Source: Deltaproteobacteria bacterium (GTDB lineage: Bacteria > Myxococcota > Myxococcia > Myxococcales > Anaeromyxobacteraceae). Taken from it: 64,000 nucleotides of DNA. Location: assembly GCA_016214955.1 (NCBI GenBank), contig JACRMN010000015.1, positions 186,001 through 250,000 on the forward strand, in the 5' to 3' direction. Both the position numbers and the translations under genes were made by a program. Each line of letters begins with the position of its first letter. Positions within the stretch are counted from its first letter, which is position 1. This document shows positions 57,646 through 61,171 of this stretch, piece after piece. The notes under the pieces were generated by a model. The model worked only from the letters and a program-made list of their open reading frames with translations, had not been told where the DNA came from and searched no databases.

Positions 57646-57745
57646 ATGTCCGGCACCGCGCCCACGCACCGCGCCACCGTGTCCGGCACCGCGCCACCCC
57701 GTGTCCGGCACCGCGCCACGCCGCGCCACACGCCGCGCCACACCG
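57646..57745. repeat. Clustered GTGTCCGGCACCGCGCCAC repeats before the ECF sigma gene
   Basis: Three copies: 57646-57665 (first base A, one extra C), 57679-57697 and 57701-57719, with CCGCGCCAC blocks repeating on to 57745. The reverse complement core GGTGCCGGACAC is a near-palindrome (GTG...CAC). The array fills most of the 224-bp gap between the pit and sigma genes. Its role is unknown; options are a repetitive element of the genome or binding sites for a regulator. Confidence 0.75.
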
Positions 57746-57768
57746 AGCCGGCCACCCGCAGGCCCCGC

Positions 57769-57794
57769 GAAACCGGCGGCGGATCTCGGTGTTA
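57769..57794 (+). promoter_or_regulatory. Weak candidate ECF-type promoter for the sigma operon
   Basis: GAAACC (57769-57774) and TGTT within GTGTTA (57789-57794) are about 15 bases apart and lie 12 bases before the sigma ATG. ECF factors often transcribe their own genes from GAAC/CGTT-like elements, so this is a guess from context. Confidence 0.25.
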
Positions 57795-57805: not shown

Positions 57806-58390
57806 ATGGTGCCGGATCCCGACGCGGCCCTGCTCCTCGCCTTCCAGCGAGGGGACGAGTCGGCCTTCCGGACCCTGTTCGAGAGGCACGCGCGGTCCAT
57901 GGTCGCCTTCTGCCACCACTTCGTGAGGGACCAGGCCCGCGCCGAGGAGCTGGCCCAGGACGTCTTCCTGAAGCTCCACCAGGCCGCGCCGCGCTACCAG
58001 CCCTCGGCCCGCTTCCAGACCTTCCTCTACCGCATCGCCTCCAACCACTGCCTCAACGAGCTGCGCCGCGGGGAACACCAGGCGCGCCGCGCCGCCGGCG
58101 CCGACGGCGAGCCGGCCGAGCCCGACGCTCTCCCCGGCCATGGCGCCACGCCCGAGGAGGCGGCCCGCGGGGCGGCGCTGGAGCGGGCGGTGGCGCGGAT
58201 GCTGGCGGGGCTCCCCGAGAAGCAGCGGCTGGCGCTGGTGCTGTGCCGCTTCCAGGGGCTCTCCTACGAGGAGATCGCCGGGGTGCTGGAGACCACGGTG
58301 CCGGCGGTGAAGTCGCTGGTGCATCGGGCGACGGTGGCGGCCGCCGAGGCGCTCGCCCCCTGGGCGCCCGGGGAGGAGAGGCGGTCGTGA
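57806..58390 (+). CDS. ECF-type RNA polymerase sigma factor
   Basis: 194 residues, the usual ECF size, with domains 2 and 4 only. Region 2: AEELAQDVFLKLHQAA and YRIASNHCLNELRR. Region 4: LPEKQRLALVLCRFQGLSYE with EIAGVLETTVPAVKSLVHRA, the helix-turn-helix. The ATG at 57806 is fixed by the family start (DAALLLAFQRGDESAF); the longer in-frame frame runs through the repeats. The stop overlaps the anti-sigma GTG by 3 nt. First gene of a five-gene run. Confidence 0.93.
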   Translation: MVPDPDAALLLAFQRGDESAFRTLFERHARSMVAFCHHFVRDQARAEELAQDVFLKLHQAAPRYQPSARFQTFLYRIASNHCLNELRRGEHQARRAAGADGEPAEPDALPGHGATPEEAARGAALERAVARMLAGLPEKQRLALVLCRFQGLSYEEIAGVLETTVPAVKSLVHRATVAAAEALAPWAPGEERRS

Positions 58391-58845
58391 GCCATCTCGG
58401 CGAGAACCTGACCGCTTTCCTCGACGGCGCGCTCTCCCCGGCCGAGCGGGAGGAGGCGCTGCACCACCTGGCCGGCTGCGCCGCCTGCCGCGCCGAGGAG
58501 GCCCGCCTGCGCGGCGCCCTGGCGGCGCTGGCCGCCCTGCCGCTTCCGCCCGAGCCCTCGCCCGCCTTCGAGCAGCGCTTCCACGCGCGGCTGGCGCGAC
58601 AGCGGTCGGAGCGGCGCGGCTGGCTGGCGCGGCTGCCCGCGCGCTGGGTGCTGCCCGCGGCCGCGGCCTGCGCCGCCGCGGTGCTGGCGGTGGGCGTGGA
58701 GCTGCGCCAGCGCCGCGAGCTGGAGCACGCGGCCCGCCACCTGGACCTGCTGGAGAGCTACGAGGCGGTGGAGGCGGCCGGCGACGTGCCGCCAGAGGAC
58801 GCCGAGCTCGTGGCCCACCTCCACGAGCTCGGGGGGGAGCGATGA
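58387..58845 (+). CDS. Anti-sigma factor with zf-HC2 domain
   Basis: 152 residues, GTG start overlapping the sigma stop. HHLAGCAAC at 26-34 gives the HxxxCxxC zinc motif of anti-sigma (ZAS) domains. A single membrane helix follows at about 88-106 (VLPAAAACAAAVLAVGV), so the C-terminal 45 residues are outside the membrane and would sense the signal. Gene overlap with the sigma supports direct pairing. Confidence 0.88.
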   Translation: MSHLGENLTAFLDGALSPAEREEALHHLAGCAACRAEEARLRGALAALAALPLPPEPSPAFEQRFHARLARQRSERRGWLARLPARWVLPAAAACAAAVLAVGVELRQRRELEHAARHLDLLESYEAVEAAGDVPPEDAELVAHLHELGGER

Positions 58846-59342
58846 GCCGCGCCCTGGTCCTGGCCCTGCTGCTCGGCCTGGCGGGCGCCGCCGCCGCCGG
58901 CGAGGCGCCGGCCGGCCCCACCCCGGGCGCACGCGAGCGCTGGGAGAAGATGGGCCCGGAGGAGCGGGAGCGGCTCCGGGAGCGGTTCCGCGAGTGGAAG
59001 CAGCTCTCGCCCGAGGAGCGGGCGGCGGTGCGCGAGCGGCTGGAGCGGCTGCGCGCCATGCCCCCGGAGCGGCGTGCCCAGCTGCTGGAGAGCTACCGGC
59101 GCTTCCGCGAGCTGCCGCCGCGCGAGCGGCACGAGCTGCTCGACCGCTTCGAGCGCTGGCGCGAGATGCCGCCGGAGCGGCGCGCCCAGCTGCGCGAGGC
59201 CTTCCGGCGCATCCTCGAGGCGCCTGCCGGCGAGCGGCGCCAGTTCCTGGACAACCTGCAGCGCTGGCGCGAGATGACGCCGGCCGAGCGCGAGCGCGCC
59301 CGGGAGCGCTGGCGGCAGCAGCGCGGGCCAGGCAGGCGGTAG
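58842..59342 (+). CDS. Exported DUF3106 protein with seven 18-residue repeats
   Basis: 166 residues. A signal peptide (LVLALLLGLAGAAAAG) is followed by residues 37-162, seven contiguous 18-residue units beginning MGPEERERL, LSPEERAAV, MPPERRAQL, LPPRERHEL, MPPERRAQL, APAGERRQF and MTPAERERA. Pro is at position 3 of all units except the sixth. 18 residues is five turns of alpha helix, so each unit could be one helix of a stacked solenoid or a long amphipathic rod. Strongly charged (Glu/Arg). Family DUF3106 is often periplasmic in ECF-sigma loci. ATG overlaps the anti-sigma stop. Confidence 0.9.
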   Translation: MSRALVLALLLGLAGAAAAGEAPAGPTPGARERWEKMGPEERERLRERFREWKQLSPEERAAVRERLERLRAMPPERRAQLLESYRRFRELPPRERHELLDRFERWREMPPERRAQLREAFRRILEAPAGERRQFLDNLQRWREMTPAERERARERWRQQRGPGRR

Positions 59343-59351
59343 GCCCCGCGC

Positions 59352-60971
59352 GTGCCGCTCCGCCCGCTCGCCGCCGCGGCACTCCTCGCCGCCGCCGGTC
59401 CGGTCCTCGCCGAGGAGGCCGGGGCGGTGCAGGCGCGGGCCCTGCTGCACACGCGGGTGACGGCGCAGCAGGGCGAGCCGCGGCTCGAGCCCCGCTTCGA
59501 CGCCTCGACCCTGGCCTTCCAGGTCGGCGACTACTTCACCCCCGCCCCCGCCGAGCGCCACGGCTCGCTCTTCCTGGCCGCCGACCTCTCCGGCCGGACC
59601 GGCCCCTGGCGCTGGGCCCTGGGCTTCGACTCGGGCGAACTGCGCCGCACCCCCTCGCCCCCGTTCGCGTCGATCTGCCTCTCGCGCCCGGCCCAGCCCA
59701 CCGGTCTCGCCCTCGCCGACGGCGGCGCCTGCGCCGGCGCCCTGCTGGGTCGCGAGGTGGTCGTCCAGGTGCCCTCCGCCGGCAGGGACACGACCCGCCT
59801 CACCGCCGGCGGCCGCGCGCCGCGGGAGGAGCTGCGCCAGACGCTCTTCGTCCGCGAGGCCTGGGTGGGGATCACCACCGGCCGCAACGACTTCGCCTTC
59901 CTCCGCGCCGGGCGCCATCGCTTCTCCGTGGCCGACGGGCTGGTCTACGACGACTACGGCCTCGGGCTCGAGGCGCGGCTCGACCTGGGCGCGCTCGGCC
60001 CTTCCTGGGAGGTCCACGGGGCCGCCTTCCTGCCCACCCGCGACTGGCCCGACGCCGGCACCGCCCGCTCGCCGCTCCTCTTCCTGCGCCTCGACCGGAT
60101 GCTCTCCCTCTTCGACCACGTGGGCGCCTTCGCCGCCTACTTCCACGACGACGCCGGCGAGGTGGCCAGCCTCTTCCGCGGCAGCGCCGTCGAGGTCTCC
60201 TCGCTGAGGCTCCAGGGGCTCACCCCCGCGCCGAGCACGGTGCAGCCCGGAGGTGTCGTCCCCTCGGCCTACCAGCAGGAGGCCCGCACGCTGGCGGCGG
60301 CGCTGGGCGGGCCGGTGGACGGCACCGCCGACCTGGTGTGGGGCGGCCTCTCGGCGGGCCTCTCCTTCGGGCGCGGCCACCGGGTGTCGGCCGCGGCGGC
60401 GGTGGTGGCGGGCACGGTCCGCTTCACGGTGCCCTTGGCCTTCGAGGCCTCGGTGCTGGGCTGGGCCGCCAGCGCCGCCTACGAGGTGCGGGTCCACCGC
60501 GATCTCCTCCTCGGCGCCCGCTTCCTGTTCCTCTCGGGCGACGCACCGCCGGAGGAGAAGGTGCGCTTCAGCCTGCCGCACCGCTACGGCGGCTTCGTGG
60601 GCGTGGCGCCCTGGATCACCGCCACCAACCTCTTCTTCAAGGGCGGCCTCTCCGAGACCTTCGCCGCGCGCCAGGCGAGTGCGCCCGGCGTGAATGGTCG
60701 CGGCGTCCTCGGGCCGGTGCTGCGGGCCCTCTGGGAGCCGGCCGAGTCCTTCCAGGCCGAGCTCCGCGGCGCCTGGCTGGAGGCACCGGTGACCGGCCCC
60801 TTCGGCGGCCGGGTGTATGGTCCTGAGGTGGACGTGAACCTGCGCTGGTCGCCGCTCGCCTGGCTCTCGCTCTCGCTCGAGGCCGACCAGCTCTGGTCCG
60901 GGAGCTTCTACGGGCCCGACCGGGCACCGGTGAGGAAGCTCATCCTGGGCGTGGACCTGACGGCGCCGTGA
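59352..60971 (+). CDS. Predicted outer-membrane protein, probably beta barrel
   Basis: 539 residues, GTG start with a signal peptide (PLRPLAAAALLAAAGPVLAE). The sequence is rich in alternating strands, for example RFTVPLAFEASVLGW, EVRVHRDLLLGARFLFLSG and WLSLSLEADQLWSG, and ends [11 protein letters not shown], not in Phe. A porin-like barrel is the best reading. The family is not recognised. It lies 9 nt after the DUF3106 gene and overlaps the short acidic gene by 4 nt, so it is co-transcribed with the ECF unit. Confidence 0.65.
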   Translation: MPLRPLAAAALLAAAGPVLAEEAGAVQARALLHTRVTAQQGEPRLEPRFDASTLAFQVGDYFTPAPAERHGSLFLAADLSGRTGPWRWALGFDSGELRRTPSPPFASICLSRPAQPTGLALADGGACAGALLGREVVVQVPSAGRDTTRLTAGGRAPREELRQTLFVREAWVGITTGRNDFAFLRAGRHRFSVADGLVYDDYGLGLEARLDLGALGPSWEVHGAAFLPTRDWPDAGTARSPLLFLRLDRMLSLFDHVGAFAAYFHDDAGEVASLFRGSAVEVSSLRLQGLTPAPSTVQPGGVVPSAYQQEARTLAAALGGPVDGTADLVWGGLSAGLSFGRGHRVSAAAAVVAGTVRFTVPLAFEASVLGWAASAAYEVRVHRDLLLGARFLFLSGDAPPEEKVRFSLPHRYGGFVGVAPWITATNLFFKGGLSETFAARQASAPGVNGRGVLGPVLRALWEPAESFQAELRGAWLEAPVTGPFGGRVYGPEVDVNLRWSPLAWLSLSLEADQLWSGSFYGPDRAPVRKLILGVDLTAP

Positions 60972-61171
60972 TCGCCTCCGCCTTCGCCGCCCTGCTCCTC
61001 TGCGCCGAGCCGGCCCCGCCGCCCGAGCCGGCTCCTGCGCCTGCGCCCGATCCCGACGCCGAGCTCCTGCAGCACCTCGAGGAGCTGGAGCAGCTCGACC
61101 TCCTGCGCAACCTCGAGCTCTTCGACCCGGGTGAGGAGGAGCCGGGACCGAAGGGGCAAGGAAAGGGCTAG
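60968..61171 (+). CDS. Short exported acidic, Leu-rich protein
   Basis: 67 residues, GTG overlapping the barrel stop (GTGA). Hydrophobic start ([11 protein letters not shown]), Pro/Ala linker, then an acidic Leu-rich helix ([20 protein letters not shown]) and a Gly/Lys tail. It fits a pattern of short exported peptides found with DUF3106 and ECF genes (memory, unverified). Last gene of the operon. The stop is shared with the convergent RlmN-like gene. Confidence 0.65.

Follow-up and report, generated by a model that had tools for sequence, protein, structure and literature searches.

In the RpoE-RseA-RseB system, RseB binds the periplasmic part of the anti-sigma factor RseA, and off-pathway lipopolysaccharide (LPS) relieves RseB (PMC8103513). 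Here, we describe an operon of five genes at positions 57806 to 61171 of a 64,000-nucleotide (nt) stretch (the window) of contig JACRMN010000015.1, from a member of the Anaeromyxobacteraceae (Deltaproteobacteria bacterium, GCA_016214955.1). The operon encodes, in this order and all on the forward strand, an extracytoplasmic function (ECF) sigma factor, a membrane anti-sigma factor, an exported basic protein of the DUF3106 family, a predicted outer-membrane beta-barrel, and an acidic exported peptide. Judged by sequence comparison, the core of this peptide is a copy of the C-terminal periplasmic tail of the anti-sigma factor from the same operon. We regard the chances as about even that the genes make up an autoregulated, sigma-E-like operon for envelope homeostasis, in which DUF3106 would bind the anti-sigma tail and the peptide would compete for it, thereby tuning the sigma factor.

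The anti-sigma factor (58387 to 58845; 152 residues) has a zf-HC2 N terminus, a single hydrophobic span, and an acidic periplasmic tail, within which residues 135 to 149 (58789 to 58833) form the conserved motif PPEDAELVAHLHELG. The peptide (60968 to 61171; 67 residues) matches no Pfam or NCBIfam family, yet its alignment reveals a conserved family. When a profile of 33 peptides was compared with one of 36 anti-sigma factors, the peptide motif (residues 27 to 41; 61046 to 61090) was paired exactly with PPEDAELVAHLHELG (P=9.4e-5). The same resemblance was found genome by genome: matched against the tail encoded in its own genome, the peptide outscored shuffled peptides (p<=0.05) in 26 of the 30 pairs from the Myxococcales and in each of the 13 pairs that came from other families and phyla. 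It also scored better against the true tail than against the reversed tail, a control that keeps the composition and helical periodicity of the tail, in 30/30 and 12/13 of these pairs, respectively. The charges, meanwhile, are opposed. In the window, the net charges are +13 for mature DUF3106, -10 for the anti-sigma tail, and -9 for the peptide (the medians being +14, -10, and -9).

This mimicry is the basis of the competition model. DUF3106 would bind the acidic, leucine-rich tail of the anti-sigma factor, in a role like that of RseB on RseA, and this binding would set whether the anti-sigma factor holds or frees the sigma factor. The free peptide, presenting the same motif as the tail, would compete for DUF3106, so that the sigma factor would be tuned by how much peptide there is relative to DUF3106, a balance that the barrel or the state of the outer membrane may set; the barrel may be what feeds the state of the outer membrane into the switch. 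Presumably, proteolysis frees the sigma factor, which would then transcribe its own operon, as feedback, together with lipoprotein, barrel, and LPS synthesis genes. We favor the sign in which DUF3106 protects the anti-sigma factor and the peptide relieves this protection, but the opposite sign may hold instead. An earlier interpretation of the locus (the sequence-only reading) cast the repeat protein or the peptide as the signal sensor, and a sensing role for either is possible. However, the resemblance of the peptide to the anti-sigma tail, together with the opposite charges, suggests a binding partner and its competitor rather than two independent sensors.

The proposed binding partner (58842 to 59342; 166 residues) belongs to DUF3106 (PF11304), scoring 90.4 bits against a gathering threshold of 24.3. 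Its residues 31 to 156 (58932 to 59309) consist of seven consecutive 18-mers without an insertion or deletion, and its self-match at a lag of 18 is 0.336, whereas 2,000 shuffles averaged 0.142 and never exceeded 0.248. The sequence-only reading described these as seven exact 18-residue units, which is correct as to length but not as to sequence, since any two units agree at only 3 to 13 of their 18 positions. Nor is the period peculiar to the window gene; it runs throughout the aligned DUF3106 members. (The broad DUF3106 alignment proved too diverse to serve as a search profile, and a narrower one was used instead.) An AlphaFold model built from 23 relatives is a helical solenoid in which each unit is one helix, with a core predicted local distance difference test score (pLDDT) of about 93.

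Such a basic helical solenoid, accompanied by an envelope-type regulon (see below), might also be expected of a periplasmic chaperone of the Spy/CpxP kind, or of a binder of polyanions, such as LPS. DUF3106 would then be an effector of the operon, with the tail and the peptide as regulatory ligands or stabilizing acidic clients. Spy/CpxP-like proteins can be effector and feedback sensor at once. We nevertheless consider this explanation unlikely, given that DUF3106 lies almost constantly right after the anti-sigma gene, that it reaches only 15.1 bits against the Metal_resist model (PF13801, CnrX type; cutoff, 29.2), and that a profile search of the PDB with DUF3106 returned only scattered helical proteins and no solved homologue whose role is relevant.

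Far less probable, in our estimation, is a circuit that senses metal or redox state, whether CnrYX-like or built on a zinc anti-sigma factor of the RsrA/ChrR type. The zf-HC2 motif of the window's anti-sigma factor (38.5 bits) could be read this way, and metal sensing was among the functions first proposed for the locus. It is not borne out. Across 39 homologues, DUF3106 has no cysteine and about one histidine; its Metal_resist score is the subthreshold one given above; and the HxxxCxxC zinc ligands are missing from eight anti-sigma homologues, six of which are not truncated. The predicted targets, moreover, are envelope genes and not metal-efflux genes. The anti-sigma factor is placed with the class I zf-HC2 type by its zf-HC2 domain, its membrane span (judged by eye), and its position adjoining the sigma gene. 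At six loci (L069, L071, L077, L081, L082, and L090), a sequence resembling ARDPKLKAL stands in place of HxxxCxxC; these are natural zinc-free versions, and the sigma gene is kept beside them wherever the contig extends that far. We also considered a correspondence to DdvA of Myxococcus xanthus and rejected it; the anti-sigma profile weakly matches 8rlz, but a Myxococcus member of the family does not.

The barrel (59352 to 60971; 539 residues) has no sequence match in Pfam, NCBIfam, or the PDB, and its AlphaFold model is all-beta at moderate confidence (pLDDT, 70; predicted template modeling score [pTM], 0.71). A single barrel sequence used as the query against all genomes gave no match outside, but a barrel profile matched 19 of 174 Myxococcota genomes. 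In 15 of these 19, no more than about 4 kb separates the match from DUF3106; of the remaining four genomes, two have the barrel on a different contig, one has it at a distance of 11 kb, and the last has no detected DUF3106. One homologue gives a subthreshold hint of Alginate_exp (E=0.053). Because the peptide gene directly follows the barrel gene in family f1 (with a 4-nt overlap in the window) and at L167, L169, L170, and L171, it could be argued that the peptide is the partner of the barrel and not of DUF3106, and that it plugs the barrel, labels it, or is exported through it. Its resemblance to the tail would then arise because the barrel, or a protease, recognizes both, by analogy with signaling from the FecA barrel to FecR. 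We doubt this, about as much as we doubt the chaperone, since no barrel adjoins the peptide retained in the Myxococcaceae and Methylomirabilota and since the barrel matches no TonB-receptor model.

As to the sigma factor itself (57806 to 58390; 194 residues), it contains regions 2 and 4 only, both above the curated Pfam cutoffs (Sigma70_r2, 64 bits versus 24; r4_2, 59.4 bits versus 25.7), and it is therefore an ECF sigma factor. Its nearest solved structures are AlgU (sigma-H; 6in7_B, E=6e-24) and RpoE (1or7_A, 4e-19). Directly before its start, at fixed spacing, the motif GMAAC-N14-SGTGTT occurs in all 12 operons of the family, and a looser form, G(C/A)AAC-N14-SGKGTT, lies upstream of the sigma gene in many other Myxococcota. 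The copy in the window (CGAAAC-N14-GGTGTT; 57768 to 57793) is the only match there and ends 12 nt before the ATG, which would make the transcript nearly leaderless. We take the -35 part of this motif to resemble sigma-E promoters, which fits AlgU and RpoE as the nearest structures. A sigma-specific promoter is thus predicted in front of the operon that encodes the sigma factor, as in an autoregulated ECF circuit. Just upstream of the promoter, at 57646 to 57712, there are three copies of (G/A)TGTCCGGCACC, found nowhere else in the window; this triplication is weak, as 13 of 100 shuffles also reach three copies.

The same promoter was then used to predict a regulon. Scanning of the 12 family genomes gave 30 matches, compared to 1 for the reversed pattern; in three genomes scanned with a relaxed pattern, the counts were 12 and 1, respectively. 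Outside the operon there are 26 matches; for 23 of them, a gene begins no more than 200 nt downstream (about 10% would be expected at random positions), and 16 of these 23 genes are exported-like by a crude rule, against a background of 37% (P=0.0014; lpxC not counted). The targets that recur between genomes are lipoproteins, a small exported protein, and lpxC. Likely the main member of the regulon is a lipoprotein with the signature CxPHLFxR..VVxRVNRHxYKxLRHVE and no Pfam match, which carries the same promoter in four genera (L063:7020-8198, minus strand; L253; L266; and L273) and lies beside the operon in G010. Also recurrent are a DUF4382 lipoprotein and a second lipoprotein family, and further predicted targets include two barrel-like proteins, a TonB-like protein, and a lipoprotein that is LolA-like by eye. 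In two genomes belonging to a single genus (L278 and L285), lpxC is preceded by the promoter, suggesting that the sigma factor may control LPS synthesis through it. Because the motif in relatives mostly precedes lipoproteins, barrels, lpxC, and tonB, the predicted regulon looks like one for upkeep of the outer membrane. A strict match in contig C17 of the window's own genome was discarded, as it lies inside a coding region.

The layout of the operon was as first described, with overlaps among the first three genes and overlaps or gaps of at most 9 nt among the rest: a codon-usage gene caller selects exactly the same five open reading frames, and the successive junctions are -4, -4, +9, and -4 nt. 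Conservation of the set, whose absence had been named beforehand as grounds for abandoning the idea, was likewise found, as the genes co-occur across several Myxococcota families. In family f1, every genome whose contig is long enough has all five genes, with no change in their order. Throughout the order that includes Myxococcus and Anaeromyxobacter, the core consists of sigma, anti-sigma, DUF3106, and peptide (at three loci, the peptide was missed by the gene caller and recovered by direct scan), with the Myxococcaceae having lost, or never had, the barrel. Other Myxococcota families rearrange the parts: barrel-peptide-sigma-anti-sigma-DUF3106 at L167, L170, and L171; barrel-sigma-anti-sigma-peptide-DUF3106 at L164; and peptide-sigma-anti-sigma-DUF3106 at L166. 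At L163 (G501), a 387-residue exported protein, FecR-like by eye, lies between the peptide and DUF3106. In family f2 (L067, L083, L085, L086, and L088), an anti-sigma-like protein, DUF3106, and the peptide are kept, and at L086 and L088 the anti-sigma-like protein is without its zinc-finger part.

Given that the flanks are conserved within the family, one might suppose that the five genes are mere neighbors in a housekeeping cluster (pitA and rlmN), with no shared function. This notion, to which we give hardly any credence, is largely refuted by the finding that the five parts travel together elsewhere, among other neighbors and in other orders, and disappear together. Ten relatives with complete or near-complete genomes and without DUF3106 lack the whole block: there, convergent rlmN comes after pitA, either directly or with one other gene in between; from this clean absence, it follows that the operon was gained or lost as a single unit. 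In the window, the convergent radical-SAM (rlmN-like) gene terminates within the peptide stop codon, in a 4-nt tail-to-tail overlap (61168 to 61171). Taken with the conserved promoter, and with the copies of it that face envelope genes in relatives, the conservation of the set upholds the initial view of a single envelope-stress operon.

The core extends well beyond the Myxococcota. Among the genomes sampled, DUF3106 scored above the cutoff in 88 of 174 from the Myxococcota, 39 of 60 from the Methylomirabilota, and 27 of 299 from the Pseudomonadota, and in the latter two phyla, sigma and anti-sigma genes lie just upstream of it at nearly every readable locus. A separate peptide of the same kind is present at the Methylomirabilota loci read and in some Gammaproteobacteria (L114, L178, L198, and L199).

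Several observations weigh against the competition model or the regulon attached to it. Betaproteobacteria-like and Xanthomonad-like loci keep sigma, anti-sigma, and DUF3106 with no separate peptide, only the anti-sigma tail, and the peptide is therefore not essential to the core. Conversely, the loci of family f2 have no sigma gene beside their anti-sigma-like protein, DUF3106, and peptide; this trio may act without a local sigma factor. The similarity of peptide and tail, along with the charge pattern, could partly reflect a shared acidic amphipathic-helix character, although as the sole explanation this is disfavored because the peptide outscores the reversed-tail control. The promoter matches, counted across related genomes, depend in part on one another, and the window's own genome gave only three relaxed matches (the operon, a multiheme lipoprotein, and a PqqD-like gene).

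The literature that we searched contains no paper that describes a tail-mimic peptide as a component of an ECF/anti-sigma system, and the peptide is a candidate for a new way of controlling ECF sigma factors. More tentatively, and here we would sooner doubt than accept, a diffusible periplasmic peptide that mimics the tail may compete for a DUF3106 solenoid receptor, sometimes with a link to a barrel, as a form of tail-decoy control of ECF sigma factors in at least three phyla. DUF3106 is a widespread exported family for which this literature gives no function (no paper found names DUF3106 or DUF3619, supplements and subscription papers being outside the search), and linking it to anti-sigma tails gives it a testable one. 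The predicted outer-membrane regulon, with its precise promoter motif, concerns bacteria in which the control of envelope stress is little known.

How, then, does the operon compare with described systems? The sequence-only reading could not match its composition to any. This holds for the literature searched, although the core of sigma, anti-sigma, and DUF3106 is widespread, for example in the Pseudomonadota. There, the core order is the same, with an acidic-tail anti-sigma factor that we presume to be DUF3619-like and, downstream, a gene presumed to be of the RDD type; the Pseudomonadota loci differ in mostly having no separate peptide, in having no barrel, and in a tail of the type ...ALLTDDLPPAAYADPGFLQFLK. 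Those with a gene of acetolactate-synthase length upstream and the RDD-type gene downstream we take to be betaproteobacterial. We found no paper on such loci in the literature searched. SbrI-SbrR of Pseudomonas aeruginosa was considered as a possible studied relative; the one review found describes it no further than as an ECF system of the envelope type. DUF3106 may already figure as a neighboring gene in one of the published ECF groups.

Like CnrH-CnrY-CnrX of Cupriavidus, the operon combines an ECF sigma factor, a small membrane anti-sigma factor, and an all-helical exported partner. Unlike CnrX, however, this partner falls below the Metal_resist cutoff, has no metal ligands, is basic, and forms a solenoid of single-helix 18-residue units, and it is accompanied by a peptide. 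As in FecI-FecR-FecA, an outer-membrane barrel is encoded with the sigma and anti-sigma factors, but this barrel has no TonB-dependent receptor domains in Pfam, so that it is not a transducer of the FecA type, and the anti-sigma factor is not recognized as FecR. The closest likeness is to RpoE-RseA-RseB and AlgU-MucA-MucB, which provide the nearest structural relatives of the sigma factor and share with the operon a membrane anti-sigma factor, an adjacent exported partner, autoregulation, and targets of the outer-membrane type. Sequence models nevertheless recognize no member of RseA/RseB (MucA/MucB) here: the zf-HC2 anti-sigma factor scores 17.2 against an RseA cutoff of 165 bits, no RseB model matches, DUF3106 is not recognized as RseB, and the tail-mimic peptide and the barrel are extra. 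By analogy, then, the operon appears to work like RseA/RseB without belonging to that family by sequence tests.

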